A stretch of DNA of 54,698 nt from a virus. The position numbers and the translations under genes are program-made. The stretch covers positions 1-54,698 of the IMG/VR virus record IMGVR_UViG_3300046714_000572. One strand, written 5' to 3'. The notes under the pieces were generated by a model that did no database searches, had not been told where the DNA came from, and saw only the letters and a list, made by a program, of their open reading frames with translations. Below, in pieces: positions 20,487 through 48,567 of the stretch. Position 1 is the stretch's first letter. Each line of letters starts with the position of its first letter.

Positions 20487-20516
20487 TTGGCGGGCCTGCC
20501 ACATCGGCAGTATTCT
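20487..20516 (+). promoter_or_regulatory. Virion operon promoter with an operator in its spacer
   Basis: TTGGCG (20487-20492), 18 bp, TATTCT (20511-20516). The spacer holds the palindrome CTGCC-ACATC-GGCAG (20496-20510), directly abutting the -10. A second copy lies downstream at 20527. This promoter would drive protease, capsid and tail genes. Confidence 0.65.
20496..20510. promoter_or_regulatory. Operator copy 1, CTGCC-N5-GGCAG
   Basis: Perfect 5-bp arms, centre 20503. It lies in the -35/-10 spacer of the virion promoter, where a bound protein would block RNA polymerase. It is 31 bp (about three helical turns) from copy 2. Confidence 0.65.
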
Positions 20517-20540
20517 ACAGGCTTGGCTGCCAGGATGGCA
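20512..20540 (-). promoter_or_regulatory. Possible divergent promoter for the portal gene
   Basis: On the minus strand, TAGAAT (20512-20517) is a good -10 that overlaps the -10 of the rightward promoter. The expected -35 position falls inside operator copy 2 and is not consensus. The leader to the portal ATG at 20433 would be about 72 nt. Confidence 0.4.
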
Positions 20541-20541
20541 G
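20527..20541. promoter_or_regulatory. Operator copy 2, CTGCC-N5-GGCAG
   Basis: CTGCC-AGGAT-GGCAG, just downstream of the expected rightward start site and over the -35 zone of the leftward portal promoter. It could let one regulator control both divergent units. Confidence 0.65.
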
Positions 20542-20607
20542 TCCTTTCTCGGATTCCTGTCGCAGATGCCCACAGAACACGCCGCAGGCGCCGTCCCGGA
20601 GGCCTCC

Positions 20608-21915
20608 ATGCCGATCTCCAAGTCCGTCCTCGACGCCGCCGCCCGCAAGAAGATCCCCCACGGGGACTTCGCCGGCCCCGACGAGTCCTACCCCATCGAG
20701 GACGAGGCCCACGCCCGCAACGCGCTGGCGCGCGCGGCGCAGAACGGCGACCCGGCGCTGATCGCCCGCGTCAAGGCGGCCGTGCGGAAGAAGTACCCGC
20801 ACATCGCGGTCGACGGCGAGCCGACGTCGAAGGCGCGCCGCATCAAGGCCGCGGCCATCACCAGCATCGCGCTCTGCAAGCGCGGCGTCAACGGCTTCCG
20901 CACGCTGCTCAAGGCCGACGGCTCGCTCTGCTGGGAGACGCTCACCAAGACGGCCGGGGAGAACGAGCTGCTCAACGTGGTGTACGCGCCGGACCGCGAG
21001 GACGGCGACGGCGAGTTCGCCTCGGCCGAGGTCATCAAGGCCGCGGCCCACGCCTACAACCGCGACCACCGCGAGCTGGACATCGAGCACGACGGGAAGC
21101 CCCTCTCCAACGAGGACGCCTACGTCGCCGAATCCTTCATCGTGGCGAAGGGCGACGAGCGCTTCGCGGACTGGAAGGGCTACGACGGCCAGCCGGTCGG
21201 CGACCTCACGGGCGCCTGGGCCACGGTCATCAAGCTCGAGAGTCCGGTGCTCCAGAAGGCGTACCGCGACGGAGAACTCGACGGAGTAAGCATGTTCGGG
21301 CAAGCAGCCCTCGAGCGTGTCGATACCACGGCTGCCTCGAAGCGCGTCGCCGACAGGCTCGGCAAGTCGCGCGACGCACAACAGGAACAGGAGATCGAGA
21401 TGGACGAGAAGCAACTGAAGGAGATCCTCTCCGGCTTCAAGGCGGAGATGGTCGAGGTCGTGAAGAGCACCGTCGCCACGCTGTCGAAGCCGGCGGAGAA
21501 GACCGAAGAGAAGGCGACCGACGAGACCCCGGTCTTCAGCGGCGACGCGACGAAGCCGGCGGACCTCGAGGCCTTCGCGGGCGTCCTCAAGGCCCACGAG
21601 ATCAACAAGTCGCTCAAGAGCGGCAAGATGACCGCCGAGCAGATCGTCGCGCTGGCGAAGTCGCTCTCGGCCGTCGAGCCGTCCGACGAGGACGCGGGCG
21701 TCGTGGCCGGCGACTCGCCGGAGGTGATCGGCCTGAAGCGCCAGCTCTTCAAGGCGCAGCGCACGCGCAACGCGCCCGAGGGCGGAGCGTCCGCCGACGA
21801 GGGCGTCGAGTCGATCGCGAAGGCCGCGGCCGACGAGGGCCGCTCCATCGCGGCAGTCTACAACGAGCAGCGTGGGTCCCGGACCGAATCCGGCATGCGT
21901 CTCGTCAAGAGCTGA
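20608..21915 (+). CDS. Prohead protease (XkdF-like) with C-terminal scaffold region
   Basis: I chose the ATG at 20608 because GGAGG lies six bases upstream; an in-frame ATG at 20566 lacks a ribosome site. Residues 1-70 contain the IPHGDFAGPDESYPI and DEAHARNALARAA segment common in phage protease genes. The central part resembles XkdF-type serine proteases: VVYAPDREDGDGEFASAEVI, then LDIEHDG (catalytic-type His), YVAESFIV and GELDGVSMFGQA (Ser in the turn). From about residue 265 the protein is Glu/Lys-rich helix, as in scaffolds. It would mature the procapsid and scaffold the shell. Confidence 0.8.
   Translation: MPISKSVLDAAARKKIPHGDFAGPDESYPIEDEAHARNALARAAQNGDPALIARVKAAVRKKYPHIAVDGEPTSKARRIKAAAITSIALCKRGVNGFRTLLKADGSLCWETLTKTAGENELLNVVYAPDREDGDGEFASAEVIKAAAHAYNRDHRELDIEHDGKPLSNEDAYVAESFIVAKGDERFADWKGYDGQPVGDLTGAWATVIKLESPVLQKAYRDGELDGVSMFGQAALERVDTTAASKRVADRLGKSRDAQQEQEIEMDEKQLKEILSGFKAEMVEVVKSTVATLSKPAEKTEEKATDETPVFSGDATKPADLEAFAGVLKAHEINKSLKSGKMTAEQIVALAKSLSAVEPSDEDAGVVAGDSPEVIGLKRQLFKAQRTRNAPEGGASADEGVESIAKAAADEGRSIAAVYNEQRGSRTESGMRLVKS
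21400..21915 (+). CDS. Nested scaffold protein from an internal start
   Basis: Inside the protease ORF an in-frame ATG at 21400 follows CAGGAGATCGAG, a well-spaced Shine-Dalgarno site. It begins at the protease/scaffold boundary with MDEKQLKEILSGFKAEM, a charged amphipathic helix. The 171-residue product would be the free scaffold, as with lambda C/Nu3. The nested arrangement is common in phages; the internal start here is inferred. Confidence 0.5.
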   Translation: MDEKQLKEILSGFKAEMVEVVKSTVATLSKPAEKTEEKATDETPVFSGDATKPADLEAFAGVLKAHEINKSLKSGKMTAEQIVALAKSLSAVEPSDEDAGVVAGDSPEVIGLKRQLFKAQRTRNAPEGGASADEGVESIAKAAADEGRSIAAVYNEQRGSRTESGMRLVKS

Positions 21916-21964
21916 GCCACAGCTTCCACCGAACCAACTCAGACAACTCTAGGAGCAGAACAAA

Positions 21965-22711
21965 ATGGCACTGCAAAACGAACAGCTCGGCGGAGACGTG
22001 GTCAGTCAGACCCCGAACCTGCGAGCCTTCCCGTACCAGGACGGCATCCAGCCGGGCAAGCTGGCGTCCTACTCGCCCGACCGCGAGCTTCCGAACCTCA
22101 CTCCGCTGTTCTACGACGACGCGAACAGCCAGTGGGCCGTGTGGCTGGGACAGGGCAGCGAGGTCAACACCATCACGTCGAACGCCACCCCGGCCACCGC
22201 CGGCACGTTCACGCTGACGGTCAACGGCCAGACCACGGCCGGCATCGCGTTCAACGCGACCGCCGCGATCGTGCAGGCCGCCCTCGAGGCCCTCTCGAAC
22301 GTCGCCCCCGGCGACGTGGTCGCCGTCGCGACCTCGGGCGCGAACCTCGGCGTCGCCAGCGCGGTCGTCACCCTGAACTGGGGCGGCGCCTACGCTGGTC
22401 AGAACGTCACCATCACCGCCAACATGGCGGGCCTGACCGGCAACCCGCACGTCTTCGCGACGAGCACTCAGGGCGGCATCGCGCCGGCCGACGGCTCGAT
22501 CATCGACGGCTTCCTGTGGGCGCCGGAAGTCCCGCACACGGCCCTCGCGGCCGGCGAGACGCTGATCCAGGTCTTCAAGATGGGCGTCATCCACGCTGCC
22601 GACGTCCCCGTTCCGGACGGTGAGTCGCAGCTCGACCTCAACGAGGCCCTCCTGGGCTCGAGCCTTCGCGAGAAGGGCATCAACCTCCAGGGCCTTCCCG
22701 GAATCCACTGA
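21965..22711 (+). CDS. Head decoration-like protein (248 aa)
   Basis: AGGAGCAGAACAAA precedes the ATG. The N- and C-terminal parts (LRAFPYQDGIQPGKLASYSP and an Ala/Pro-rich middle) resemble capsid decoration proteins encoded just before an E-type major capsid gene. An inserted domain (about residues 68-168) reads TFTLTVNGQTTAGIAFNAT and VVTLNWGGAYAGQNVTIT, an Ig-like beta-sandwich module recurrent in phage surface proteins, so the particle may display an extra domain. Position between the scaffold and major capsid genes supports the call. Confidence 0.75.
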   Translation: MALQNEQLGGDVVSQTPNLRAFPYQDGIQPGKLASYSPDRELPNLTPLFYDDANSQWAVWLGQGSEVNTITSNATPATAGTFTLTVNGQTTAGIAFNATAAIVQAALEALSNVAPGDVVAVATSGANLGVASAVVTLNWGGAYAGQNVTITANMAGLTGNPHVFATSTQGGIAPADGSIIDGFLWAPEVPHTALAAGETLIQVFKMGVIHAADVPVPDGESQLDLNEALLGSSLREKGINLQGLPGIH

Positions 22712-22758
22712 TCGTGCTGAGCTGAACAAAGCACACAAGAAAGAACTAGGAGAATCAC

Positions 22759-23820
22759 ATGCCCACCAGTGCAGACGTTCTCAGTTACAGCACGCTCACC
22801 CCGGCTGTCAACGAGATGAAGAGCCCGAACTCCATGCTGAAGAACATGTTCTTCAGCAGGAACGTTCCGGTTGCCACCCGCAACATCGAACTGAGCTTCC
22901 TCCGGCGCGGCCGGAAGATCGCCCCGTTCGTCAAGCGCAACGGCGCGGGGATCATGACGAGCGGCCGGAACGAGGAGTTCCGCGTCGTGTCGCCGGCCCA
23001 CATCCGCGTCAAGCGCCCGATGACGCCGACCGAGCTGCTCAACAAGCGCCGCCCGGGTTCGGTCATCCACATCGACGCGGGCGGGATCGCCGCCGCAGCC
23101 CGTCAGTACATGGCCGACGAACTCGGCATGCTGATGGACGACGTGGACAACTCCGAGGAGTACCTGTGTGCGCTGGCCCTCCGCGGCTCGCTCAGCTACG
23201 TCGCGGAAGACGAAGCGGCCTTCGAGATCGACTTCCTCCGCAGCGCGACGCACGACGTCACGCTGACGGGAGCCGACCTCTGGTCCGCCACCACGTCCAG
23301 CCCGCGGGCTGACTTCCTCACCGCGCTCCAGCTCGTGAACGACGACGTGTCGCTCAACGTGACGGACGTGGTCCTCGGCGCCGACGCCGCGGATGCCTTC
23401 ATCTCGCACGCTCAGGTCCAGACCCAGCTCAACATCAACACCGGTGTCGCGCTTCGCATGGGCCTGATCGACATGACGAACCAGTTCCAGGAGTCGGGCG
23501 CGATGCTGCTCGGCGAGTTCGTCCACGGGATCCGCGTCTGGCGCTACGCGCGCCAGGTCGAGGTCGCCGGGGTCGCCGTCGACCTGATCCGTCCCGACCA
23601 CGCGGAGTTCATCGCCCGCACCCCGGCCGCGCAGATGGTCACGTACTACGGCGCGATCGAGGACATGAAGGCGATCGGCGCGGGCCAGGTCCTCCAGTCC
23701 AAGCGCTTCTCGAAGAGCTGGGAAGAGGAAGATCCGTCCGCTCGCATGCTGCTCGTCGAGTCGAACCCGCTGCCCTGCATGCGGCGTCCCGACGCGACGG
23801 TCTCGATGAAGGTCGTCTGA
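22759..23820 (+). CDS. Major capsid protein, lambda gpE family
   Basis: The 353-residue protein has the E-type fold features: LTPAVNEMKSPNSMLKNMFF at the N-terminus, RPMTPTELLNKRRPG, a central Glu/Asp-rich spine, a mid-protein domain with VVLGADAADAFISH, and a C-terminal region with IRPDHAEFIARTPAAQM and FSKSWEEEDPSARMLLVES, close to the conserved KSW...DP end of gpE proteins. CTAGGAG precedes the ATG. It forms the icosahedral shell and is likely highly expressed; a terminator follows at 23842. Confidence 0.92.
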   Translation: MPTSADVLSYSTLTPAVNEMKSPNSMLKNMFFSRNVPVATRNIELSFLRRGRKIAPFVKRNGAGIMTSGRNEEFRVVSPAHIRVKRPMTPTELLNKRRPGSVIHIDAGGIAAAARQYMADELGMLMDDVDNSEEYLCALALRGSLSYVAEDEAAFEIDFLRSATHDVTLTGADLWSATTSSPRADFLTALQLVNDDVSLNVTDVVLGADAADAFISHAQVQTQLNINTGVALRMGLIDMTNQFQESGAMLLGEFVHGIRVWRYARQVEVAGVAVDLIRPDHAEFIARTPAAQMVTYYGAIEDMKAIGAGQVLQSKRFSKSWEEEDPSARMLLVESNPLPCMRRPDATVSMKVV

Positions 23821-23841
23821 TCTTCGCGAGCTGAACCTACC

Positions 23842-23876
23842 AGGGGCCGGGCGCGCCCGGCGAGTGCCCGGCCCCT
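23842..23876 (+). terminator. Terminator after the major capsid gene
   Basis: AGGGGCCGGGC pairs with GCCCGGCCCCT (11 bp, 13-nt loop), followed by GCATTCTCTCC. The weak T-tract suggests partial termination, lowering expression of the downstream connector and tail genes. Confidence 0.65.
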
Positions 23877-23924
23877 GCATTCTCTCCCCGCCGGAGGCAG
23901 ACCATACAGACAATCGGAGGCAAC

Positions 23925-24509
23925 GTGAGTCAGTACAGGGTAGCAAGAGGGGTCATCAGGAAGCCCCGCGATCCGCTCTCCGCGCGCAAGGTCGCGACGG
24001 CGGCCGACTACATCGGCCAGGGCGAGGCGATCCCCGAGGGGATGCTGAGCGAGGCGGAGATCGCGAATCTCCTGGCGACGGGCTACATCGAACCGATCGG
24101 CCTGATCGCTCCGGGCGTGCTCGAGCCGACGGTGAAGCGCGGCAAGTGGAGCGTGGACCCGGCGGCGCTCGTGGCGAAGAGCCTCGAGGACATGCTCGTC
24201 ATGGTGCTCGAGATCGACCCGGACTACGACGTCGCGGCGCTCGAGACGGTGACGGCCGCGGCTACGCAGCTCACCGCCGACTGGAACCCGGCCTTCCGCG
24301 AGGCCGTGGCGCTGTCGAACGACCGCACGCGCCCGGCACCACTGCGCTCCACCGCGAAGGTGAACCGTGACGGCAAGGTCGTCGAGGTCCGCGGCGCGCG
24401 CGACGTGGCCGAGATCCCCATGAGCGACTCGTCGAAGGAGATCCTCGACCGCGCCAGGGCGCAGGCGGCCCAGCAGGCCCCCGGCAAGGGAGACCAGCCG
24501 CAGGGCTGA
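23925..24509 (+). CDS. Hypothetical head-region protein (194 aa)
   Basis: CGGAGGCAAC precedes the GTG at 23925. The first 70 residues form a compact domain (YIGQGEAIPEGMLSEAEIAN, then LLATGYIEPIG), a short helical motif seen in small phage head proteins. The middle is helical and acidic, and the C-terminal 50 residues are Ala/Gln/Lys-rich and probably disordered. It lies between the capsid and connector genes, so a head-tail interface role is likely, though unproven. Confidence 0.65.
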   Translation: MSQYRVARGVIRKPRDPLSARKVATAADYIGQGEAIPEGMLSEAEIANLLATGYIEPIGLIAPGVLEPTVKRGKWSVDPAALVAKSLEDMLVMVLEIDPDYDVAALETVTAAATQLTADWNPAFREAVALSNDRTRPAPLRSTAKVNRDGKVVEVRGARDVAEIPMSDSSKEILDRARAQAAQQAPGKGDQPQG

Positions 24510-24520
24510 GGAGCAGTGAC

Positions 24521-25072
24521 GTGACCGACCCGCTGTTTGTCCAGGACCTCGATACCCTGAAGAAGTTGGTGCGGCTCTCAGGAGTGCCCGCCAGCCGCGA
24601 GGACACCCTCGCGATCCTCGACGAGGCGATTCTCAACGCCCGCCTGGAGTTCTATCGCAGGCTGGGCAGACAGCGGGTCACCAACTTGGTCGGCATGGCG
24701 TTCGTCTCGAACCCGACCACGGAGGACGAGGTCGTGCGCGCGCTGGCGAACGTCGTCGAGACCGACCTCGTCTACGTGCAGCTCCTGCGCAAGCTCCCGA
24801 ACCTCTTCCAGGACGCCTCGGGCGACGCGCAGCGGCGCTGGAACGAGGAGGCGCCCTTCCGCGAGCGCGGCGGTACGCCGCTCCAGAAGGAGATCCAGAC
24901 CCGCCTCGACAAGATCGAGGAGAACATGGAGCTGCTCGCCGAGGAGGAGTCGATCCCCGACGAGACCCAGATCAAGACCTTCGACGGGACGCGCCTCACG
25001 CGGGCGCCTCGACCCGGCGACTCACTTCGACCTTTCCATCGTCGCTGCGGCGGCGTCTTTCCACAGGACTGA
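24521..25072 (+). CDS. Head-tail connector-like protein (183 aa)
   Basis: The GTG at 24521 follows GAGGAGCAGTGAC. The N-terminal helices (LDTLKKLVRLSGVPASREDT, then a four-helix-like region) resemble gp6/adaptor-type connector proteins. The C-terminal third is acidic then basic and low in hydrophobic content. Gene order (capsid, small protein, connector, tail) fits. It would join portal and tail. Confidence 0.6.
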   Translation: MTDPLFVQDLDTLKKLVRLSGVPASREDTLAILDEAILNARLEFYRRLGRQRVTNLVGMAFVSNPTTEDEVVRALANVVETDLVYVQLLRKLPNLFQDASGDAQRRWNEEAPFRERGGTPLQKEIQTRLDKIEENMELLAEEESIPDETQIKTFDGTRLTRAPRPGDSLRPFHRRCGGVFPQD

Positions 25073-25077
25073 TTCAC

Positions 25078-25479
25078 ATGGCAAACGCTCTCTACGGGCT
25101 CGGCCGAGCCGCCTTCGGCAACGCCGGCATCAACTGGACCTCGGACAACATCAAGGTCGCGCTGGTCGACTCGGCCGTGTACACGCCGAGCATCAACGTG
25201 GACGACTTCCTCAACGACATCGCCTCGGTCGTGGCGACGTCGGGCAACCTCGCGAGCAAGACCAACACGCTCGGCGTGATGGACGCCGCGGACATCACGT
25301 TCACGGCCGTCACCGGCGCGCAGAGCGAGTACCTCGTGATCTACAAGGACACGGGCACAGCCTCCACCAGCGCGCTGATCGCTCTGATCGACACAGCGAC
25401 GAACCTCCCGATCACCCCCAACGGCGGCGACATCACCGTGCAGTGGGACAACGGGGCGAACAAAATCTTCAAGCTCTGA
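25078..25479 (+). CDS. Conserved-type virion protein (133 aa)
   Basis: The ATG at 25078 lies five bases after the preceding stop. The beta-rich protein begins MANALYGLGRAAFGNAGINW, then VALVDSAVYTPSINVDDFL. This opening, in which a short strand region is followed by VALVD and a short helix FLNDI, recurs in small structural proteins of many siphoviruses. No enzyme motif is present. It is probably a minor virion or tail-interface protein; exact function unknown. Confidence 0.65.
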   Translation: MANALYGLGRAAFGNAGINWTSDNIKVALVDSAVYTPSINVDDFLNDIASVVATSGNLASKTNTLGVMDAADITFTAVTGAQSEYLVIYKDTGTASTSALIALIDTATNLPITPNGGDITVQWDNGANKIFKL

Positions 25480-25511
25480 TCGCGAGCTGAGGACCAAGGA
25501 GCCCAGAGACA

Positions 25512-28259: not shown

Positions 28260-28281
28260 CCAACCTCTAGGAGAAACACAC

Positions 28282-29145: not shown

Positions 29146-29164
29146 TCTGAGACGGTCGAGAGGC

Positions 29165-29192: not shown

Positions 29193-29225
29193 ACGACCAC
29201 CAACAACAAGAGAGGCAAGGCAGAC

Positions 29226-30163: not shown

Positions 30164-30164
30164 C

Positions 30165-33100
30165 GTGGCAGTCGACCGCGGTGGCCTCCAGTACACGATC
30201 ACTCTCCGAGACCAGTTCTCGAAGACGACGGCGAAGTTCCGTCAGGAACTGGGGGCCACCAAGGCGGCGTTCGCGGAATTCCAGCGCGGCGCGTCCGTGC
30301 AGAAGCAGTCCGCGGACGGCTTCAAGAAGACGGCCGCTGCGATCGACGAGCAGCAGGCGGCGCTGCGACGCCTCCAGGCCGAGTCTCGCCGGCAGCAGGC
30401 CGTCGAGCGCACGGCGTTCCGCACGAACCAGGCTGCGCAGAAGGACGTCGCGAAGGCGCTCGCGCAGGAGGCCGCGCTCCGCAAGCAGGCCGCCACCGAC
30501 GCCGCCAGGGCGCAGCGCGACGAGCAGCGCGCGATCAAGGAGAAGGTCGACGCGCAGAACCGCGCCGCGAAGCAGGCGCAGGCCCTGAACGCCGCGCGCA
30601 TCAAGGACGAGAAGACCCTCCAGGCCCAGCAGGAGAAGGAGGCCCGCGCCAAGCAGGCCGCCGATCCCGGCTTCCTCGCGCAGAAGCGGATCAACGACGC
30701 TCTCAAGGAGGAGCAGGTCGTCCGCCAGCAGATCACGCAGCTCCGCGCCCGCGCGCAGCAGCAGTTCGCGGCCGGCGACCTCCTCGGCGGCGCGCGGTCG
30801 ATCAACCAGGCGAAGGGCCTCAAGGAGAGCCTCGACCAGATCGGCTCGAGCGCGAGCCGCACCTTCTTCACCTTCCGCCGGCTCGTCGGCATCCTCGCGG
30901 TGTTCACGATCGCCCGCCAGGCGGTGCAGAGCTTCAAGGACCTCGTCACGACGGCGCTCGCGTTCAACAACACGATCGAGTCGGCCCGCATCGGCATCGC
31001 CGGCCTGATCGTCACGAGCGCCGAGGTGCGCGACCAGTTCGGCCAGAACCTCACCGGCGCCGACGCCTTCAACCAGGCCCTCGCGGTCGCGCGCGTGCAG
31101 GTGAAGGCGCTGACGCAGGACGCCATCAAGCTCGGCGTCCCGTTCCAGACGCTCGTCGAGACGTTCCAGATCGCCGTCGCGCCCGGCTTCGGCGCCGGCC
31201 TGAACCTCGACCAGATCCGCCAGCTCACCGGCTCGATCGCGGCTGCCGCGAAGGCCATCGGCCTGCCGCAGAACCAGCTCGCCGAGGAGATCCGGTCTCT
31301 GCTCGCCGGCACGATTCAGGCGCGCACGACCCGCATCGCGACCGCGCTCGGCATCACCAACGCCGACGTCCGCCGCCTGAAGGAGACGGGACAGCTCTTC
31401 GACTTCCTCGAGAACAAGTTCAAGTCGTTCAACGTGGCCGCCCAGCGCGCCGCGCGCGGCACCCTCTCGGGCGTGCAGGAGGTCGTGCAGGGGATCCTCC
31501 AGCAGGTCCTCGGCCAGGCCGCCGGCCCACTGTTCCAGACGCTCATCGACCTCGGCAACGAGCTGCTGGACAAGGTCCTGACCATCCAGGACGCCACCGG
31601 GGAGATCAAGATCAACCCGAAGGTGGTGCAGTCGTTCCAGGTCATCTTCGACGCGCTGCGCGACGGCGTGCTCGCGATCCGTGCGGCCTTCGCCGACCTC
31701 GGCTTCAACGGGCTGAAGGACGCCTTCCAAGCCGCGGGCTCCGCGCTGGTCGCGTCGCTGCGCTTCGCGATCGGCTTCGCGCAGACGCTCTTCAAGGTCC
31801 TCACGACCGTCGTCGAGCTGATCCGCGGCATCGCCGGGGCCTTCGGCCTCACCGAGAAGGGACTCGGACAGATCGCCGGCCTGTTCGGCGGCATCATCGC
31901 GCTCACCGTGGTCTGGGACCACACGCTCGGGCTCACCGGCCTGAAGATCGGCACGATCCTCACCGGCCTGAAGGATGCCCTCGGGGCGCTGCTGAAGATC
32001 GACGGACCGGCGCTCACCGGCATCCTCACGAAGATGGGCATCTGGGCCGCGATCCTCGCGACCGTGGTGGCCGGGGCTGACCTCTTCCTGAGCAGCGTCT
32101 TCGACGTCAACCTGAACCTGCTCGAGACGATCCGCCTCCTGAAGATCGGGCTGCTCGGCGGCATCAAGGACGCCGCGCTCGCGCTGAAGACGACGGCCAT
32201 CCAGTTCAAGGGGGCCTTCACCTTCCAGACGCAGGAGGCGATCGACGCCGAGAAGATGCAGGCGGTCACCGACAGCCTCAGGGAGCAGAAGAAGCTCGAC
32301 GAGGAGATCGCCGCGATCACTACGAAGGCCGCGGAGCGCTCGAACCGCGGTCCCGGCTTCGATCCCGCGGCGCAGGCGAAGAAGAGCGCGCAGGACTTCG
32401 CCGGGATCATCTCCGGCGTCGCTCGTCAGGTGCGTGACCTCGACGCCCTCATCAAGACGATCGACGACGACCTGTTCAAGACCGGGCAGGAGTTCCGCCA
32501 GGCGTTCAACACCCAGGACATCCAGGGCTCCGCCGGCAAGATCCAGAACATCTTCAGCGAGCAGGCGACCACGCTCGCGGTGAACCTGAAGAAGATCCGC
32601 AGCGAGCAGGCGCTCGTCGAGAAGCAGATCGCCGAGATCATCAAGGGCCAGAACGTCACCGCAGAGCGCCGCGTCCAGCTCGAGGACGCCGCGTCGGGGA
32701 ACCTCGACGCCCGCCAGCTCGCGGCCCTGAAGGTCACCGCGGCCGAGGGTCAGCTCGTCTCGCTGTTCCAGGACGAGGCGGAGATCAACGACGCGATCAA
32801 CGGGATCCAGCAGAAGTCGGTCGACCTCGCGATCAAGAAGGCCGCGATCGTCGCCCTCGAGTCGTCGCGCGACCTGAACCGCGAGGCCGTCGTGTTGCGC
32901 GCGCAGGCGCAGGCCGAGCAGAAGATCAGCGAGGTCATCGTGGGCCGGCTCGGCGCGCGCCGACAGGCAACCGTCGAGGCCGAGAACGCGCTGCTCATCG
33001 CGCAGACCGAGAACCACCAGCAGGAGGAGTCCCTACAGCGCCAGATCCAGCTCACCCAGGAGAAGATCACGCTCGCCAACCGGACCGGCCCGGGCGGCCC

Positions 33101-42159: not shown

Positions 42160-42167
42160 GAGGCAAC

Positions 42168-42698
42168 ATGGCACGACCGACAATCACCCCGATCAACGCC
42201 GGCAACCAGGGCTGGGACGGCGTCATCGACGACGACTTCGACGTCCTGGCGAACGCGCCGATCCCCGTCTACGAGTCCGCCGCGCTCACCGAGGCGAACG
42301 TCGCCTCGACGTTCCCGCCGGCCAGCTACGACCGCTGCATGGTGTGGGTCAACCACACGACGCTCGGCTACACGCTGTACCGCTCGGACGGCACGAACTG
42401 GGCGCCGTTCGACGCGCAGCGCCGCGTGTCGCGCAACATCACCGGCGCGACGACGATCACGCTGGCCGAACAGGCCGCGCTCATCACGGCCAGCGGCACG
42501 CTGCCCTACTCGATCACGCTCGAGGCGGCCAGCCTCTTCCAGGGCCGCACGCTCATCTTCAAGACGCTCGTCGCCGGCACGCTGACCATCGCTCGCGCTG
42601 GAGGGGACACGATCGACGGCGCGACGACCCAGACGATCACGACCCAGTTCGGCGTGCTGAGGATCTACTGCAACGGCAGCACCTACTACGTCATCTGA
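42168..42698 (+). CDS. Small beta-rich tail or fibre protein (176 aa)
   Basis: TAGGAGGCAAC precedes the ATG. The protein begins with INAGNQGWDGVIDDDFDVL, a short motif common near the N-terminus of phage fibre proteins, continues with YTLYRSDGTNWAPF and ends in a Thr/Ile-rich beta segment. It lies directly after the J-like gene, where receptor-binding or fibre accessory genes usually sit. Confidence 0.65.
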   Translation: MARPTITPINAGNQGWDGVIDDDFDVLANAPIPVYESAALTEANVASTFPPASYDRCMVWVNHTTLGYTLYRSDGTNWAPFDAQRRVSRNITGATTITLAEQAALITASGTLPYSITLEAASLFQGRTLIFKTLVAGTLTIARAGGDTIDGATTQTITTQFGVLRIYCNGSTYYVI

Positions 42699-42710
42699 TC
42701 CAAGTGCAAG

Positions 42711-42728
42711 GGCGGCCTTCCAGCCGCC
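42711..42728 (+). terminator. Hairpin after the tail fibre gene
   Basis: GGCGGC-CTTCCA-GCCGCC, followed by TGTCTGCC. A weak terminator or processing hairpin in a 110-nt gap. Confidence 0.4.
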
Positions 42729-42808
42729 TGTCTGCCGCGGGCCTCGGGGGAATGCCTCCTCCTCCGGGGCCTGCACCTTCATCTGAGGGGCTTTCTGGAG
42801 ATTACCGC

Positions 42809-43105
42809 ATGGACACAAATCCGCTGGGCGCAATGTACACGCGCTACGACGCCCAAGTCATCGAGACCGAGGGCCACGCTGGCGACCCGACCTGGGCGCA
42901 GCGCCACGAGGACGAAGTCGTGGGCCGCTTCAAGGCGGTTCAGCCGGACCCCGCCAACCTGAACGAGATCAGCTCGAACTGGAACAGCGCGGACGGCCCC
43001 GAGGCGTTCGACTGCACGAAGACGAACGCGATGGACCAGATCCAGTGGGAGCGGCGCTGGGTGCGCCAGTTCCGTGCCATGAGCACGTCGTTCCCGCCGG
43101 TCTGA
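42809..43105 (+). CDS. Hypothetical protein at the end of the virion operon (98 aa)
   Basis: CTGGAG precedes the ATG at 42809. The product is soluble, Trp/Asn/Asp-rich and largely helical (YDAQVIETEGHAGDPTWAQR), with no recognised motif. A strong hairpin follows at 43116 before the convergent operon. Confidence 0.6.
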   Translation: MDTNPLGAMYTRYDAQVIETEGHAGDPTWAQRHEDEVVGRFKAVQPDPANLNEISSNWNSADGPEAFDCTKTNAMDQIQWERRWVRQFRAMSTSFPPV

Positions 43106-43115
43106 TCGGCTAGAA

Positions 43116-43139
43116 CCCGGGGGGCTGCACCCCTCCGGG
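43116..43139. terminator. Bidirectional terminator between the virion and packaging operons
   Basis: CCCGGGGGG pairs with CCCCTCCGGG (9 bp, one G-U) around a 6-nt loop. It lies exactly between the convergent 3' ends at 43105 (+) and 43141 (-). Confidence 0.7.
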
Positions 43140-43140
43140 C

Positions 43141-43605
43141 TCAGTTCGTGCTCGGCCCCGTCGGCGGCGGGATCATCTCGGGCGGCGGCTCGACGACAGG
43201 CTGCGCTCCTCGGAACGGCAGCGTCGCACGGTAGGCGGTCGAGAACGCCACGCCCCAGATGTCGTCGTGGGAGTTGATCTGGCTCGCGCCCCACACCATG
43301 CAGTGAGCCCACTCGTGGATGAGCGTGTCGAGGATCCCGCTCATCGACTGCCGGGCCTCGATCTGGACGTCGTAGCCGTCCTGGGCCTTGCGAGTCAGCC
43401 CGAGGTACGGACCCTCGATGATGCAGAGTCGGATGTGGACAGAGCCGTTGACCGGCGCGTTCTGGGCGAGGCCTTCGACGCAGCGGACGAAGAGCGCCTG
43501 ATCGAAGCCGTCGGAGAACTGCTCCACGATCACCGCGGGGCGCGGGTAGAACAGCGCGCACGACGGCGCGAGGGCGAGGCAGGCCAGCAGCAGCAACTTC
43601 TTCAA
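43141..43605 (-). CDS. Secreted lipoprotein-type zinc metallopeptidase (HEWAH), TTG start
   Basis: A TTG at 43605 follows ACAGGAGAAG, a clear Shine-Dalgarno site. Starting there gives a classic signal peptide: M-K-K, LLLLACLALAP, then SC (possible lipobox, Cys16). Residues 91-120 read ILDTLIHEWAHCMVW and SHDDIWGVAF: the HExxH zinc motif (His97, His101) with a downstream His113-Asp, as in SprT-like phage peptidases. The last 20 residues are Pro-rich. The product would act in the periplasm or outer membrane, perhaps in host-envelope remodelling or lysis. It is the last gene of the leftward operon. Confidence 0.7.
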   Translation of the reverse strand: MKKLLLLACLALAPSCALFYPRPAVIVEQFSDGFDQALFVRCVEGLAQNAPVNGSVHIRLCIIEGPYLGLTRKAQDGYDVQIEARQSMSGILDTLIHEWAHCMVWGASQINSHDDIWGVAFSTAYRATLPFRGAQPVVEPPPEMIPPPTGPSTN

Positions 43606-43793
43606 GGGGTCTTCTCCTGTGCCCGCTGCGCGCGGGCTCGAGCGCCGTCTCCCTTCGAGACGACTGGGGTGAGTAGCGTCTCGAGGCAGAACACGAGCCG
43701 GCACTTGTCGCAGTAGCCGCGCTGGAACTTCTGGTCCTTGAGGCCGTACGTGTGGGTGACGCGGATCGTTCCGCCGCAGCTCTTGTGCTTCAT
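43602..43793 (-). CDS. Zinc-ribbon mini-protein (63 aa)
   Basis: The ATG overlaps the terminase stop (ATGA) and is preceded by GGAGGAGC. An N-terminal Cys (KSCGG), a CDKC knuckle and a further Cys (FCLE) resemble a zinc ribbon of the kind found next to phage terminase genes. The C-terminal half is basic and Ala/Arg-rich. Function unknown. Confidence 0.65.
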   Translation of the reverse strand: MKHKSCGGTIRVTHTYGLKDQKFQRGYCDKCRLVFCLETLLTPVVSKGDGARARAQRAQEKTP

Positions 43794-45268
43794 CTGCTCC
43801 TCCGCACCTTCGAGCCCAGCTTGTAGGGCCGCCGGTTCATCCCGGCGATCTTGCCCTCGCGGCCGATGCGGCTGTAGAAGGACATGACGACCGCGTCGGC
43901 GCGGTCGGGCGACTCGTCGATCTCGGTGCGGTCGCGCCACTCGTCCTTCGTCTCGACCTTCAGCCTGCCCTTGCGGTCGGTGTAGTACTGGCGCGTCGAG
44001 AGCTGCTTGATGAGGCGCGGGTCGTTCGGGATGTGGACGATGTGCTCGACGACGAGGTTCCTGAAGTTCCACCACGCCTCGCTGTAGGCGTCGGCGTACA
44101 TCGAGCTGTCGCCCGCGACGCCCTGCGTGTGGAACTCGAACACCTGCTTGCCGCCCTCGTGGAACGAGTGCACGATGCCCTGGCCCATGCCGCCCGCGTC
44201 GGGGATGTACCAGCAGTCCTCGTTCTTCCAGCCCGCGTCGTACTGGAGGCGGAAGGCGTAGTCGGTCACCTCGCGCGGGTCGCACTTCACGAACACCTTG
44301 TAGTCGACGACCGCGAGGCCGCTGCGCCGCACGACGACCGACTCGTCGCTGCCGTAGCGCGCGTAGTCGATGCCGAACGCGCGGCTGATCGGCAGGATGT
44401 CCGTGATCGTCGCGCACCCGAACATCTGAGTCTTCGTGCACGCGATCAGGTCATCGATCGCCATCAGCGCGTTCGGGTCGCTGCGCGGGAACTCCCCGAG
44501 CACGCGCACGCGATATACGTCGCTGTCGCGGCCGTACTCCAGCTCGAGCGCCTTGTTGCGGCTGGGGTGCACGATGTGCGGGTAGTCGCGCGCGGTGTCC
44601 TCGGCGTTCCAGCCGAGCGTGTGCCACTGGTCCGCCTGCGTGGTGAAGAACTCGTGGAAGCCGCAGTCGGTGGTGTTCGGGTTGCCGATCGCGAGGAAGA
44701 GCGCGTCGGGGTTCGACAGCGTGCCCTTGATCGTCTCGATGATCGGCCGCGCGACGCCGGACGCCTCGTCGGCGATGAACGTCAGGCGCTTCTCGTGGAT
44801 CCCCTGGAGGTTCTGCGGGCGCGAGGCCGTCGCGGAGCGGATCCCCCAGATCGGGTTCTTGTTGATCTCCATCTTGGTGCCGTAGCACTCGACGAAGCCC
44901 TGGAGGAACGGGTGCGCGTCCTTCATTATGCGCCGCCCCTCGTCGATGAACTGCTTGCACTGCCGCATGTTCGGCGCCGTGACCACGCAGAGCGCGTCCG
45001 GGTAGCGGATGCAGCGCCACATCGCGACCGCGAAGCTGATCGCGGTCTTCCCCGGCCCCTGCCCCGAGCGCACGGCGATGCGCTTGCGCCGCTTGCCGAC
45101 CGGGAGCTGCGACTCGAGCTGCACGACGTCGAGGAGCTGCTTCTGCTGCCACGTCGGGCCGGTCCCGGGGTACTCCTGCCCGAAGTTGAGGCCCTCCTGG
45201 ACGAAGAAGTTGATGTCCTCGCGCCAGCGCTCGTACAGCGGCGTGAACTTTCGCTCGAACGCGGTCAT
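43790..45268 (-). CDS. terL: Terminase large subunit
   Basis: The 492-residue protein carries the terminase ATPase and nuclease. Walker A SGQGPGKT is at residues 68-75, Walker B LTFIADEAS at 162-170, and the C-terminal nuclease domain has GIDYARYGSDE (about 294) and ESPDRADAVVMS near the end with acidic ligands. It translocates DNA into the prohead with TerS and the portal, and cuts the concatemer. Coupled by ATGA to both the upstream membrane mini-protein and the downstream zinc-ribbon gene. Confidence 0.92.
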   Translation of the reverse strand: MTAFERKFTPLYERWREDINFFVQEGLNFGQEYPGTGPTWQQKQLLDVVQLESQLPVGKRRKRIAVRSGQGPGKTAISFAVAMWRCIRYPDALCVVTAPNMRQCKQFIDEGRRIMKDAHPFLQGFVECYGTKMEINKNPIWGIRSATASRPQNLQGIHEKRLTFIADEASGVARPIIETIKGTLSNPDALFLAIGNPNTTDCGFHEFFTTQADQWHTLGWNAEDTARDYPHIVHPSRNKALELEYGRDSDVYRVRVLGEFPRSDPNALMAIDDLIACTKTQMFGCATITDILPISRAFGIDYARYGSDESVVVRRSGLAVVDYKVFVKCDPREVTDYAFRLQYDAGWKNEDCWYIPDAGGMGQGIVHSFHEGGKQVFEFHTQGVAGDSSMYADAYSEAWWNFRNLVVEHIVHIPNDPRLIKQLSTRQYYTDRKGRLKVETKDEWRDRTEIDESPDRADAVVMSFYSRIGREGKIAGMNRRPYKLGSKVRRSR

Positions 45269-45441
45269 TTTCCCTGGCCGACGACCCGATCGACGCGATC
45301 GGCCATCAGCGAGGCGACTTCCGCGTGTCCGCGGGCCTCGGACGCGGATTTTTGGCTCTTCAGGGCCAGAATCGCGGCGACGACGGCCGCCAAGATGGCC
45401 GGAATGTTCACGAGGAGCGCGATCAGGACGTTTTCGTTCAT
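45265..45441 (-). CDS. Small single-helix membrane protein (58 aa)
   Basis: The ATG at 45441 begins a 58-residue ORF. Residues 5-26 are one strong transmembrane helix (LIALLVNIPAILAAVVAAIL), followed by a Lys/Ser/Ala-rich cytoplasmic-type tail. Its TGA overlaps the TerL ATG. Size and topology allow a holin-like or antiholin role, but nothing is diagnostic. Confidence 0.6.
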   Translation of the reverse strand: MNENVLIALLVNIPAILAAVVAAILALKSQKSASEARGHAEVASLMADRVDRVVGQGK

Positions 45442-45448
45442 TGTTTGA

Positions 45449-45991
45449 CTACCAGACGACGATTCGGGTGTGTTTCGGGTGCGTGGAGTGCTCCTCGAGC
45501 GCCTTGCAGGACTCGACGAAGGCCGGATCCGAGCCGCGGGCGCCGAAGACGACGCTCACGATGGCCTGCGGAGCCCTGTGCTGGACGATGTTCGCCACGT
45601 TCGCCATCATCCGCAGCTCCCAGATGGCCTGGCCGCTGAATCGGAGCACGTTCCAGCGCGGAAAACCCGTCACCGAGGCGAGCTGCGGGTTGATCCGCTG
45701 CGTCACGGACTCGAGGAACTCCATGATCTTGCCGTCTTGTCCGCGTCCCGAGGCCAGCATGATGCCCGAGGAGCACGGGACCGACAGCACGCGCCACATC
45801 GCGTAGACGAGGCACGCCCGGCCCATCTCGTTCCGGTCGTCGCCGACCGTCTGGTAGAAGGAGGGGTTCGTGCCGAGCACCCCGAGGACCTCCCGCTGCC
45901 GCGGCGTGGGCCGCAGCTCGAGCTGGTCGCACATCGTCAGGGGCGTCTTCAAGGCGTCTAGCCTCTCACGCAGGGCTGCGTCGGTCAGCAT
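45449..45991 (-). CDS. Degenerate terminase-ATPase-like protein (180 aa)
   Basis: The segment LELRPTPRQREVLGVL, then ACLVYAMWRVLSVPCSSGIM, then a Gly-Gln-Asp-Gly turn and KIMEFLESVTQ, resembles the first half of a terminase ATPase. At the expected Walker A position it reads GDDRNEMGR, so no P-loop lysine/threonine is present. It may be a non-catalytic terminase relative or an unrelated packaging protein. It lies between TerL and the membrane/coiled-coil protein, overlapping the latter by 26 nt. Confidence 0.55.
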   Translation of the reverse strand: MLTDAALRERLDALKTPLTMCDQLELRPTPRQREVLGVLGTNPSFYQTVGDDRNEMGRACLVYAMWRVLSVPCSSGIMLASGRGQDGKIMEFLESVTQRINPQLASVTGFPRWNVLRFSGQAIWELRMMANVANIVQHRAPQAIVSVVFGARGSDPAFVESCKALEEHSTHPKHTRIVVW

Positions 45992-46247
45992 GGAGCCTCT
46001 TGCACTCCTCGAGGTCGTCCTCGAGCGTGTTCACCTTGATCGCGAGGCGCGTGTTCGTCGCGTGCATCTCGTCGATCTTGTCCTCCAGCTCGCGGATGCG
46101 CCCGACGAGCGTGTCGCGGTAGTCGCTCTTCTCCAGGCGCTTGTTCTCGAGCCACACCGCGAGGAGCTTGGCGACGCCGGCACCGGCCAGCAGGGTGACT
46201 CCGCTCTTGAGCCAGGGCGGGAGTTCGTTGATGTCTGCGAAGATCAT
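45966..46247 (-). CDS. Membrane-anchored coiled-coil protein (93 aa)
   Basis: From the ATG at 46247 the product has a transmembrane segment at residues 14-32 (SGVTLLAGAGVAKLLAVWL) followed by a long Glu/Lys/Asp-rich coiled coil (residues 35-85). This is the layout of inner-membrane spanins such as Rz, although orientation and Cys content are not distinctive. The 3' end overlaps the next gene. Spanin or membrane-tethered structural protein are both possible. Confidence 0.6.
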   Translation of the reverse strand: MIFADINELPPWLKSGVTLLAGAGVAKLLAVWLENKRLEKSDYRDTLVGRIRELEDKIDEMHATNTRLAIKVNTLEDDLEECKRLHADRRSPA

Positions 46248-46294
46248 GTGAGGGGTTCTCGGGGAGGGGCGGCCGGAGGCCGCTCCAAAAAAGC

Positions 46295-46423
46295 CTACTC
46301 GAAGTGGGCGTTCACGTCCTCGGGAAAGACGGGACACGCCTGGTCCTCGGACTCGTCCTCCTCGAGGTCGAAGACGTCCTCCTCGGGGTCCATGCCGTCG
46401 ATGCCGTGGCGGTTGGGCCTCAT
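46295..46423 (-). CDS. Tiny acidic protein (42 aa)
   Basis: GGGGGAGGATC precedes the ATG, which overlaps the stop of the preceding gene. The 42-residue product is strongly acidic (DVFDLEEDESEDQ) with one Cys. DNA mimicry is a conceivable role for such acidic phage peptides, but this is speculation. Confidence 0.5.
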   Translation of the reverse strand: MRPNRHGIDGMDPEEDVFDLEEDESEDQACPVFPEDVNAHFE

Positions 46424-46902
46424 CGCGGGATCCTCCCCCCGAGCAGCCCGCGGGCCGTCGTCCTCGCGGTGCCGAGCGCGCTCTTGGTCACGGACTTCGC
46501 GGTCTCCCACGCCGACCCGAAGATCGCCGGGTAGTGGCCCCACGCGCGGAAGAGCGCGTACAGCAGCGCGCCGAGCAGCAGGCCCTTCCAGTCGAGCCAG
46601 CTCCCGCCCGAGCCGGCGACGGGGTTCCCGTGCGCGTCCACCTGCACCACTGGGCGCGGCGCCATCAGCGCGGCCCAGAGGGCGCCGGTGCCGGCGGCGA
46701 GCATCGCGCCGAGGAAGCCGATCGGGTAGAAGAGCCACGAGAGGCCCCCGACCACCGCGCCACCGCCGAGCTGGATGACGCGCTCACCCAGGTACTTCAG
46801 GCCCTGGCCGATCGCGAGGCAGCTCGGCAGCGCCAGGAGCAGGACCGTCCACGCCGCGAGCACCGCGCTCGTCCGCCTCAGCAGCCAACCTCGCACGCTC
46901 AT
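46420..46902 (-). CDS. Multi-pass membrane protein (160 aa)
   Basis: I chose the ATG at 46902 because GAAGGAAGG precedes it. The protein has an N-terminal signal/TM segment (residues 12-32, AVLAAWTVLLLALPSCLA), two more hydrophobic segments (about 50-95) and a hydrophobic helix near 115-130 before a Lys/Thr/Ala-rich tail. A small loop is Pro/Asp-rich. It could be a holin or a membrane component of the lysis cassette; no known family is evident. Confidence 0.6.
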   Translation of the reverse strand: MSVRGWLLRRTSAVLAAWTVLLLALPSCLAIGQGLKYLGERVIQLGGGAVVGGLSWLFYPIGFLGAMLAAGTGALWAALMAPRPVVQVDAHGNPVAGSGGSWLDWKGLLLGALLYALFRAWGHYPAIFGSAWETAKSVTKSALGTARTTARGLLGGRIPR

Positions 46903-47099
46903 CGAATACCTTCCTTCGCTCCGCCGCGCGCTCGGCACGCGAGCGCTCCCTGTCGGGGCAGTGGCCTCAACCCTTCCACCTGATGTCGCCCATCGTACTT
47001 CGATCCTCGGTTCTTGCGCCACGTCAGCCCCTCGCTCCGGTGGTGCGTGTACCGCGGGTCCATCTTGAACTTCTTGAGACTGCCGTCGTGGGTGCGCAT
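46899..47099 (-). CDS. Basic small protein (66 aa)
   Basis: The ATG at 47099 (or an in-frame GTG at 47135) leads a very basic product with KKFKMDPRYTHHRSEGLTWR, and the stop overlaps the next ATG. It might bind nucleic acid. It overlaps a competing ORF at 47024-47146 in another frame; I prefer this one because of its residue composition and ATGA coupling to the membrane gene. Confidence 0.5.
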   Translation of the reverse strand: MRTHDGSLKKFKMDPRYTHHRSEGLTWRKNRGSKYDGRHQVEGLRPLPRQGALACRARGGAKEGIR

Positions 47100-47146
47100 G
47101 AGGTCACGCGCACGCCTCCCACGGTCAGCAGCCACAGGTACCTCAT
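47024..47146 (-). CDS. Alternative small ORF coupled to TerS (40 aa)
   Basis: The ATG at 47146 overlaps the TerS stop and follows GAGAGGGAGAAC, a good ribosome site. The peptide begins with a short hydrophobic stretch (MRYLWLLTVGG), then Thr/Arg-rich sequence. It overlaps the previous entry, so at least one of the two may be spurious. Confidence 0.3.
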   Translation of the reverse strand: MRYLWLLTVGGVRVTSCAPTTAVSRSSRWTRGTRTTGARG

Positions 47147-48210
47147 GAGTTCTCCCTCTCGAACTCCGCGATCACCGCGGGGTCCTCGTCGTCCTCGCCG
47201 GTCGGCTCGAGCCTCGCCGGCAGCGCGGTGTACGTGCTCGGCTCGGCGCGCCCCGCGGTCGGCACTACCGTCGCCTGGACCTCCAGCATCTTCCTGTCCT
47301 GGCGCTGCGCGACGCCCGCGATGATCCCGGCGAAGGCGCGGCCGAGGTCCTCGGGGTCGGTGCGCGTCAGGCCCTGCACGCGGGCCAGCTCCTTCAGCGC
47401 GCGCAGCTCCTTGTCCGTGTTCATCTCCTCCTTCGCGCGGGCGACGAGGTCCTTGAGCTGCGCGACCATCAGCGCGCGGTCCTCCTCCACACTGCTCGAG
47501 CCCATCCGCATCGCGTCCGCGCGGGCCAGGCGGATCAGGCCCACGGCCTCCTTCCGCGCCAGGCCGTAGCGGTCGCGGAAGTGGTCGAGCGTCGGGCGCT
47601 CGCCGCACTCCAGGATCGAGCGGCCCGCCTCGTCGATCAGCATGTCCTCTAGGGCCAGCACCTGGCGCTCGGTCACGCCGGCGTGCACGCAGGTCCGATA
47701 GTCGAGCAGGCCGCGCAGGCCCGCGGCGCCACCCTCGGTGCGGGCGATCTTCAGCTCGTCGGCGAGCAGCGCCGCCACGCGGCACCAGGTGCGCGCCAGG
47801 TACAGCTCGGCCGGCGGGAGCAGCGCCACGCCGTCGCGGGCCAGGCGGTGCACCTCGGTCGCCTCGCCGAGGCGCACGAGCTGCTGCTGACTCGGGCTGA
47901 GCTTGGGCCTGGTCGGGAAGTGCCAGGGCGACTCGACCGCCTGGCCGTCGGCGTCCGTCGCGTGGTCCAGGGACTCGTCCTCCGCGCACAGCCCGAGCAC
48001 CAGGGCGATCGAGCGCGCCAGGCGCCAGCACACCATGATGCGCTGGGAGTGGTCCTCGGGCGCCGGCACCACGAGGTCGGGTCCGGGCGGCGCGAAGACG
48101 CGCTCGAGCGCGAAGCGCAGCTCCCCATCCACCAGCCGACGCGGAGCACCGGCGCTGAGGAAGGCCTCGAGCGCGGGCGTGGAGACGTCGACACGGTGCT
48201 GCTGGCTCAT
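47143..48210 (-). CDS. terS: Terminase small subunit-like protein (355 aa)
   Basis: The ATG at 48210 lies about 19 nt after the expected transcript start of the promoter at 48236-48264. The C-terminal 130 residues show a DNA-binding and oligomerisation pattern: HFRDRYGLARKEAVGLIRLA (helix-turn-helix-like), a helix with LKDLVARAKEEMNTDKEL, then LARVQGLTRTDPED, as in small terminase subunits. The first 220 residues are an extra helical domain with Cys and Trp residues, longer than usual. First gene of the packaging operon that includes TerL. Confidence 0.65.
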   Translation of the reverse strand: MSQQHRVDVSTPALEAFLSAGAPRRLVDGELRFALERVFAPPGPDLVVPAPEDHSQRIMVCWRLARSIALVLGLCAEDESLDHATDADGQAVESPWHFPTRPKLSPSQQQLVRLGEATEVHRLARDGVALLPPAELYLARTWCRVAALLADELKIARTEGGAAGLRGLLDYRTCVHAGVTERQVLALEDMLIDEAGRSILECGERPTLDHFRDRYGLARKEAVGLIRLARADAMRMGSSSVEEDRALMVAQLKDLVARAKEEMNTDKELRALKELARVQGLTRTDPEDLGRAFAGIIAGVAQRQDRKMLEVQATVVPTAGRAEPSTYTALPARLEPTGEDDEDPAVIAEFERENS

Positions 48211-48235
48211 CCGGGCGGGGTGTCCCGCAACTAGA

Positions 48236-48264
48236 AGAGTACGCCTGCCGATATGGCAGGGCAA
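48236..48264 (-). promoter_or_regulatory. Packaging operon promoter with operator in its spacer
   Basis: On the minus strand: TTGCCC (48259-48264), 17 bp, TACTCT (48236-48241). The spacer is almost entirely the palindrome at 48245-48259. Drives TerS/TerL and downstream membrane genes. Confidence 0.7.
48245..48259. promoter_or_regulatory. Operator copy 3, CTGCC-N5-GGCAG
   Basis: CTGCC-GATAT-GGCAG, in the spacer of the packaging promoter. This is the same position relative to -35/-10 as copy 1 in the virion promoter at 20 kb. Confidence 0.68.
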
Positions 48265-48524
48265 GAGGAATCCCGGAATCTGCAACTGGGCGCGCTCGAG
48301 CCGGGTCCGCGGAGCACGCACGCGGCGTCGTCGACTTTCCGCACGACAACCTCTAGCCCCAGATTTTTCACCCCGGGTTTTTCTCCCGGAAAATACCCCG
48401 CGCGATATAAGGGGGTGCACTTGGCCCGCTCAGAATCTCGCACGTGAAGGAACGTTCATGAAATATATTCCCCACAAGCCCCCGGGCAGGCCCTAGAGGG
48501 GTTGTTTTGCGTATATGTATGGTA

Positions 48525-48547
48525 ATAATAGCCTGCCAATATGGCAG
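48525..48547 (-). promoter_or_regulatory. Possible distal leftward promoter next to operator copy 4
   Basis: On the minus strand, TATTAT (48525-48530) lies two bases after operator copy 4, the spacing seen between operators and -10 at the other two promoters. No good -35 is present. On the + strand the same bases form an extended -10 (TGGTAATAAT). Confidence 0.4.
48533..48547. promoter_or_regulatory. Operator copy 4, CTGCC-N5-GGCAG
   Basis: CTGCC-AATAT-GGCAG, perfect arms, centre 48540. It is 20 bp from copy 5. Confidence 0.65.
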
Positions 48548-48552
48548 GTAGG

Positions 48553-48567
48553 CTGCCACTTGGGCAG
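48553..48567. promoter_or_regulatory. Operator copy 5, CTGCC-N5-GGCAG
   Basis: CTGCC-ACTTG-GGCAG, perfect arms, centre 48560. Paired with copy 4 at two helical turns, which would suit cooperative binding. Confidence 0.6.

Follow-up and report, generated by a model that had tools for sequence, protein, structure and literature searches.

Putative operators at the late promoters of a virus contig and its relatives have the arms of a Gemmatimonadota heat-shock box

The virus contig IMGVR_UViG_3300046714_000572, analysed here as an entire record of 54,698 bases (the window), carries a repeated palindrome, CTGCC-N5-GGCAG, close to the starts of its portal, capsid/tail and terminase operons, which raises the question of whether one DNA-binding protein governs the late genes through these copies and, if so, which protein that would be. 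All five perfect palindromes reported by a first-pass annotation are present, and their sequence, position and conservation indicate that they are a real, conserved family of operators at phage late promoters, the simplest reading of which is that they serve a repressor of the NtrC/Fis class. The sites, to which no strand is assigned, are:

20496-20510: site 1, CTGCCACATCGGCAG, within the rightward capsid promoter (spacer) and across the start of the leftward portal promoter.
20527-20541: site 2, CTGCCAGGATGGCAG, on the -35 of the leftward portal promoter.
48245-48259: site 3, CTGCCGATATGGCAG, within the leftward terminase-operon promoter (spacer); kept in the relative G018.
48533-48547: site 4, CTGCCAATATGGCAG, in a non-coding region; kept in G018.
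48553-48567: site 5, CTGCCACTTGGGCAG, 20 bp from site 4; the second copy of this pair is degenerate in G018.

A count against a shuffled background, which the first-pass annotation had proposed as a check, bore out the enrichment of the perfect form, as the five copies compare with 0.22 expected from dinucleotide shuffles (largest 2, with five reached in none of 100). One-mismatch copies showed no enrichment (7 versus 4.06 expected, with 10 of 100 shuffles getting to 7). All five perfect palindromes lie wholly in non-coding DNA, which, according to gene calls from our own codon score, makes up 4,511 of the 54,698 bases (8%). When all palindromes of the window were scanned for other 5-bp arms, with gaps of 0 to 12, no arm had more than two non-coding copies.

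The position of the sites was then read against promoters, called by eye or by a simple scan, and against the surrounding genes:

20487-20516, plus strand: capsid/tail operon promoter, weak sigma70-like, TTGGCG-18-TATTCT (by eye, approximate boundaries; unlisted by the scan; position matched in the relative G001).
20512-20541, minus strand: portal operon promoter, sigma70-like, CTGCCA-18-TAGAAT (scan), facing the capsid promoter.
48236-48264, minus strand: g54-terminase operon promoter, weak sigma70-like, TTGCCC-17-TACTCT (by eye, approximate boundaries; unlisted by the scan).
18718-20433, minus strand: portal protein gene (PHROG portal families).
20608-21915, plus strand: g25, opening the rightward capsid/tail operon (gene calls).
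22759-23820, plus strand: major capsid protein gene (phrog_29).
43790-45268, minus strand: terminase large subunit gene (phrog_2).
47143-48210, minus strand: g54, opening the leftward terminase operon (gene calls).

From PHROG matches and gene calls, the portal operon lies left of 20,433, the capsid/tail operon right of 20,608, and the terminase operon runs leftward from g54 at 48,210. The sites overlap phage promoters of sigma70-like type, although the geometry claimed by the first-pass annotation stood only in part. It held best for site 2, which covers the -35 of CTGCCA-18-TAGAAT, the sole promoter-like match of the scan in the portal/capsid region. The promoters at sites 1 and 3 match the consensus by eye at 8 and 7 of 12 bases, respectively; both fall below the scan threshold and therefore rest on position, which is backed by relatives, G018 having TTGACC-[site]-CG-TACGCT at the place equivalent to the terminase promoter of the window. 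The further promoter claimed beside sites 4 and 5 was not found by the scan, which listed a minus-strand, terminator-like stem at site 4. This pair lies within a 1-kb, AT-richer non-coding stretch that also holds the single perfect DnaA box found in the window (TTATCCACA, 48682-48690; 0.02 expected) and, by eye, repeated ATTGTAA motifs, a combination that marks a likely replication origin.

Conservation, the other check that had been proposed, was followed in relatives gathered by protein searches, most of them incomplete contigs and several near-copies of one another. At least one perfect site was found in 17 of the 25 gaps read between portal and capsid genes, window included, while two gaps had variants only (L010, L015) and six had none (L007, L020, L025, L026, G017 and L169/G019). 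Four of the 17 (L050, L078, L113, L131) had first come up when contigs were scanned for the palindrome pair; a less biased count therefore takes the contigs found by protein homology plus the window, with perfect sites in 13 of 21, variants in two and none in six. The close relative G018 (portal 71% identical) keeps the site at the terminase promoter and the pair at 48.5 kb, and has one more site near a middle promoter. Sites are also carried by G016, G006 and G002. When up to one mismatch to CTGCCANNNTGGCAG was allowed, there were five copies in the window, five in G016, four in G018, four in G006, one in G002 and none in G017 and G019, a total of 19 over these seven genomes, whereas the totals for 39 rearranged arms averaged 2.3 and reached 17 at most; G019 has one copy with perfect arms and different central bases. 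Two candidate sites of the form CTGCC-N5-GACAG (G016 14656 and G006 11656) were discarded, as they follow conserved g11 codons also present in the operator-less G017. Because the sites are conserved at both the portal/capsid and the terminase promoters of diverged relatives, a single DNA-binding protein could control both late units, as the first-pass annotation had suggested.

The relatives also showed how the sites are arranged. In an alignment of ten of them, the portal and capsid promoters stand face to face, the rightward one being mostly TTGACA-17-TAnGGT and the leftward one having the same layout. In the G016 type, a pair of sites lies between these two sigma70-like promoters, the first site of each promoter beginning 8 bases past its -10 (L009 and the like), unlike the spacer position seen in the window. 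Spacings within pairs are mostly 20-22, 31-33 and 53 bp, near whole helical turns. In G017 and L020 both promoters are intact and the operator block is cleanly missing from between them, and the record of G017 has no site anywhere. On a tree of 23 capsid proteins, the operator label needs two changes versus 5.3 in label shuffles, none of 500 being as low; as near-copies favour clustering, most inner branches lack firm support and the label seldom changes, we take the tree as one gain plus one loss and not as repeated evidence. Separately, a conserved A/T-rich near-palindrome (approximately AAATC-NNN-GATTT) lies just before the -35 of both facing promoters in L009, L013, L014, L022 and relatives, with or without the operator; as a possible site for the phage protein g17 described below, it was set aside, as exact copies are few.

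Two phage-encoded helix-turn-helix (HTH) proteins had been put forward by the first-pass annotation as candidate binders:

15242-15472, plus strand: g17, a lone NtrC/Fis-type HTH_8 protein of 76 aa, our favoured candidate binder (Pfam, structure match, model).
8263-8439, plus strand: g10, a small HTH protein (HTH_58), judged not to be a candidate.

The proposal was not supported for g10, which the window shares with G018 (52%) but with no other relative. That for g17 proved credible in part. This protein, encoded in the replication gene block, belongs to the NtrC/Fis-type (HTH_8) class: it scores 26.1 bits against Pfam HTH_8 (cut-off 22), nine of nine aligned members of its family match HTH_8 at E <= 0.01, and its closest solved relative is the DNA-binding domain of NtrC (1ntc, E 2.9e-6). 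Its predicted model (pLDDT 86.8) finds domains of sigma54 activators as top Foldseek matches, with a probability of about 1.0 and E values of 0.08 or worse. It has neither an AAA+ Sigma54_activat domain nor a receiver domain, and is thus not a complete sigma54 activator. Counting variants, g17 is present in 10 of the 10 operator-bearing contigs that cover its place, and it is missing from the operator-less G019 and L025. Being phage-encoded, of the right class and co-distributed with the operators, g17 is the favoured binder.

No phage gene was found to track the operators exactly, and no other DNA-binding gene follows them. A putative secreted metallopeptidase, g45 (43141-43605 of the window, HEWAH motif by eye), occurs in five of five genomes with operators and in neither G017 nor G019; it was rejected as it is not of a DNA-binding type. 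In addition, no g17-like gene was found in unrelated contigs with paired boxes, no integrase or CI-like repressor among the 29 window proteins compared with PHROGs and the 10 compared with Pfam (part of the genes), and no prophage relative was confirmed by the capsid profile.

A resemblance that the first-pass annotation had missed points beyond the phage, as the arms CTGCC and GGCAG are common to the phage operators and to tandem boxes upstream of heat-shock genes in some Gemmatimonadota. Genome contigs were scanned for CTGCCANNNTGGCAG boxes in pairs with 3 to 18 bp between them, which returned 37 stretches, 25 of them in Gemmatimonadota or the BD2-11 clade. In 14 genomes selected for having a pair, single boxes numbered 4 to 21 per genome, and the reversed control gave 0 to 2. 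A wider sample of 121 Gemmatimonadota genomes had a pair within 30 bp in 12 cases (reversed control, none), so that the box is a feature of only part of the phylum. Ten of the 25 Gemmatimonadota pairs lie upstream of dnaK (4), clpB (4), hsp20 (1) or lon (1), and eight of 10 further regions (five pair clusters of G104 and one region from each of five other genomes) have the pair upstream of dnaK, clpB or hsp20; for DnaK, ClpB, Hsp20 and Lon one example each was checked with Pfam, the remainder being named from sequence. One host box adjoins uvrA. Two contigs labelled as Gammaproteobacteria (L266, L292) are probably misbinned, as the flanks of their boxes closely resemble, by eye, clpB and amidohydrolase loci of Gemmatimonadota.

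Sigma54 activator sites typically take the form of tandem palindromes ahead of a -24/-12 element. Such an element (10 to 11 of 12 consensus positions) was found, between the box and the start codon, at seven of seven dnaK and three of three hsp20 promoters (shuffle fraction <= 0.01), at one of three lon genes (shuffle fraction 0.02) and not at the single uvrA gene. Because the element follows it at dnaK and hsp20, the host box there resembles an upstream activating site for a sigma54 activator. Gallionella and a beta-proteobacterium each have a pair directly beside the gene of an AAA+/HTH_8 activator ending in ERTLYR[KR], with a -24/-12 element nearby. At L281:1316-2862 and L283:4606-6088, CTGCCANNNTGGCAG pairs adjoin the gene of a PAS/AAA+/HTH_8 sigma54 activator as well as a -24/-12 element, before cydA-like genes (named by eye).

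The best match to the g17 profile in nine of 10 Gemmatimonadota genomes was one orthologous activator, which has the AAA+ Sigma54_activat domain. In six of six fetched regions its gene lies in an hslVU-argF-gcvT cluster, with a box within the cluster in three of the six; we note this gene (L396-L401) as a candidate heat-shock activator. The tandem box with its sigma54 elements at dnaK and hsp20 and the activator gene near hslVU together predict a sigma54-driven heat-shock regulon in Gemmatimonadota. HrcA/CIRCE and HspR were considered as the host heat-shock reader and rejected: no CTGCC, CIRCE or HAIR pattern was seen near hrcA in six loci (MerR-type HspR itself was not searched), and the CIRCE core gave one match each in four of five genomes. 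Neither the phage operator nor a sigma54 heat-shock regulon of Gemmatimonadota was recognised in publications among the matches listed, where motif spellings gave none, and the excerpted text of a sigma54-regulon survey never names Gemmatimonadota (PMC12316311).

The host of the phage may belong to this phylum. Homology was tried and dropped as a guide to the host, since the capsid profile gave no confirmed relative in genome contigs and the terminase found 11 of 298 genomes at 25-29% identity.

Our best model, to which we give somewhat less than an even chance, is that a g17-type HTH_8 protein represses the late promoters through paired operators that share a host stress-activator box. The palindromes would be paired operators for a dimeric NtrC/Fis-type protein, most probably the phage's own g17, a DNA-binding domain without ATPase or receiver domain. 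Because the operators overlap the core or the start of these promoters, an occupied pair would block RNA polymerase at the portal, capsid and terminase promoters together, and relief of repression might come through titration by replicated genomes. In this way, the box of a stress regulator and a detached DNA-binding domain would have become a late-gene repressor. We infer the binding of g17, its repressive effect and the way of relief alike.

Several observations weigh against this model. The g17 gene persists in the operator-less G017 and L020, and the letters of its recognition helix are identical in G017, which has no site, and G002, which has one. This helix reads AST-MYRK (TSS-IFRL in the window) versus ERTLYRK in the activators beside host boxes. 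As for the boxes, the centre AAAAT is found in one of 27 phage sites versus 78 of 95 host sites, a host set partly chosen by a pattern fixing A and T. For 20 phage sites, the best -24/-12 match within 200 bp reached 9 of 12 positions, below the threshold of 10. On the host side, the element is also lacking between box and start codon at eight of eight clpB genes, and some boxes are located between gene ends, others being at metabolic genes. No close phage relative was found in genome contigs, and the link to the host is motif sharing alone. Finally, some phage sites (G016 4664, G006 2955 and G018 11681) lie upstream of middle promoters at a distance of 45-86 bp, from which a simple block would not be expected.

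In a rival reading, the binder would be a host protein, with the sigma54-type activator of the hslVU cluster or a relative repressing the overlapping sigma70 promoters and the phage thereby sensing host stress. Since no phage gene tracks the operators exactly, g17 of G017 shares the G002 helix in a genome free of sites, and g17 lacks ERTLYRK, we regard this as a serious alternative, albeit a doubtful one. The arms of the phage sites equal those of the boxes at dnaK, clpB, hsp20 and lon, with sigma54 elements at dnaK and hsp20; the orthologous activator lies in the hslVU cluster in all six regions, three of which have a box there; and the box stands next to an activator gene independently in two proteobacterial contigs. 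Yet the host is not established, the AAAAT centre that is nearly fixed in the host set is rare in the phage boxes, which also lack the sigma54 element, and pairs are restricted to the subset of Gemmatimonadota given above. Both proteins could also read the boxes at once. It is distinctly unlikely that the reader is instead a regulator of an unrelated family (LexA-like, TetR-like or LuxR-like), from phage or host, and that the likeness to the sigma54 box is coincidental. CTGCC-N5-GGCAG is a generic palindrome of dimer size, found in identical form in unrelated large viral contigs, and many phage genes are without assigned function, whereas the adjacency of boxes to HTH_8 activator genes and the sigma54 elements support the class of the host-side binder.

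Readings in which the palindromes do not act as promoter operators fare worse. A function in RNA, as hairpins for 5' end protection, attenuation or termination, is consistent with five strong pairs and a 5-base loop, with the terminator-like score of site 4, with the position of both sites at the start of both transcripts in G016-type relatives, and with left-arm C-to-T variants (L010, G006) that would retain a G-U pair. Still, site 3 and its G018 counterpart sit in a promoter spacer and would therefore be outside that transcript, the variants of L015 and G018 are not confined to positions that preserve RNA pairing, and the site set is symmetric like a protein site, all of which makes such a role very improbable. 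The least probable reading, and hardly a credible one, is that the sites mark a replication or partition locus; it draws on sites 4 and 5, about 115 bp from the DnaA box in its AT-richer non-coding stretch, while the most conserved pair lies some 28 kb away between the portal and capsid promoters.

Sigma54-like elements were also seen in phage DNA in another setting. Non-coding DNA upstream of the g54/terminase operon of G017 (contig 31206-31494; L152:11206-11494) holds the -24/-12 consensus in ten same-strand copies, of which nine read TGGCACG-N4-TTGCT, with spacings of mostly 26-28 bp; the window and the six other genomes searched have none. Across viral contigs (L195-L262), 69 stretches have two such boxes within 20 bp, and rows of at least three occur at 27 of the 68 loci examined, with 26 bp as the commonest spacing. 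These arrays are possibly RpoN decoys, or repeats that merely resemble the element; no precedent for sigma54 decoy arrays was recognised among the literature matches listed. In a separate set, low-GC contigs in L029-L144 (e.g., L052, L082, L101), some exceeding 180 kb, contain CTGCCATTTTGGCAG-N14-CTGCCATTTTGGCAG about once per kilobase; they have no homology to the window genes, and the repeats are perhaps intergenic hairpins of large viruses.

A bolder version of the g17 model, which we consider unlikely, would go further. A lytic group of Gemmatimonadota phages would have taken the detached DNA-binding domain of the host sigma54 heat-shock activator and placed the host box between facing late promoters, creating a late repressor also able to occupy chaperone enhancers; one lineage, that of the siteless G017, would have lost this regulon, and the array of ten sigma54 promoter-like boxes in that phage could sequester sigma54 polymerase. 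If so, late transcription would be wired to the protein-folding state of the host. More generally, very little is known about when phages of uncultured phyla express their late genes, and the present finding supplies a defined operator, its overlap with late promoters, operator-less relatives as natural controls and a list of two candidate binders; if phage and host read one box, late-gene control would be linked to stress sensing.

Among known systems, NtrC offers the closest parallel in the DNA, and at glnAp1 it represses an overlapping sigma70 promoter. The NtrC consensus box is TGCACCAnnnTGGTGCA (PMC8743547). The phage box likewise is a palindrome of 15-17 bp with the core CCAnnnTGG, and all 27 phage sites, which were collected and oriented by hand, have A at position 6 or T at position 10. 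NtrC is a dimeric HTH_8 protein, as predicted for the phage reader. The two differ in that the outer bases are CTG in the phage box in place of GCA, g17 lacks the AAA+ domain, and the phage sites have no sigma54 promoter. No literature precedent for a phage NtrC-like late regulator was recognised among the matches listed. For the host side, the comparison is with HsfA, reportedly an NtrC-like two-component activator. HsfA is reported, in the title of a work cited in PMC9548883, to activate the heat-shock gene lonD of Myxococcus xanthus. Switching on such a protease gene is also the role proposed for the activator of Gemmatimonadota, although HsfA belongs to another phylum and involves no phage. 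The phiC31 repressor is a multi-operator phage repressor with conserved inverted repeats, and likewise has one palindromic operator family at several phage promoters; in contrast, no such integrase or repressor was recognised among the scanned window proteins, and the binder proposed here is NtrC-type and acts on late promoters. In phi29, p4 operates an early/late promoter switch as a small phage protein between opposing promoters that controls late transcription, as proposed here for g17, except that p4 activates the late promoter and belongs to an unrelated family. Finally, Fis of Escherichia coli, among the Foldseek matches of g17, has the same small, stand-alone HTH_8 fold, and its sites are degenerate and A/T-rich, whereas the arms of the phage palindromes are fixed and G/C-rich.

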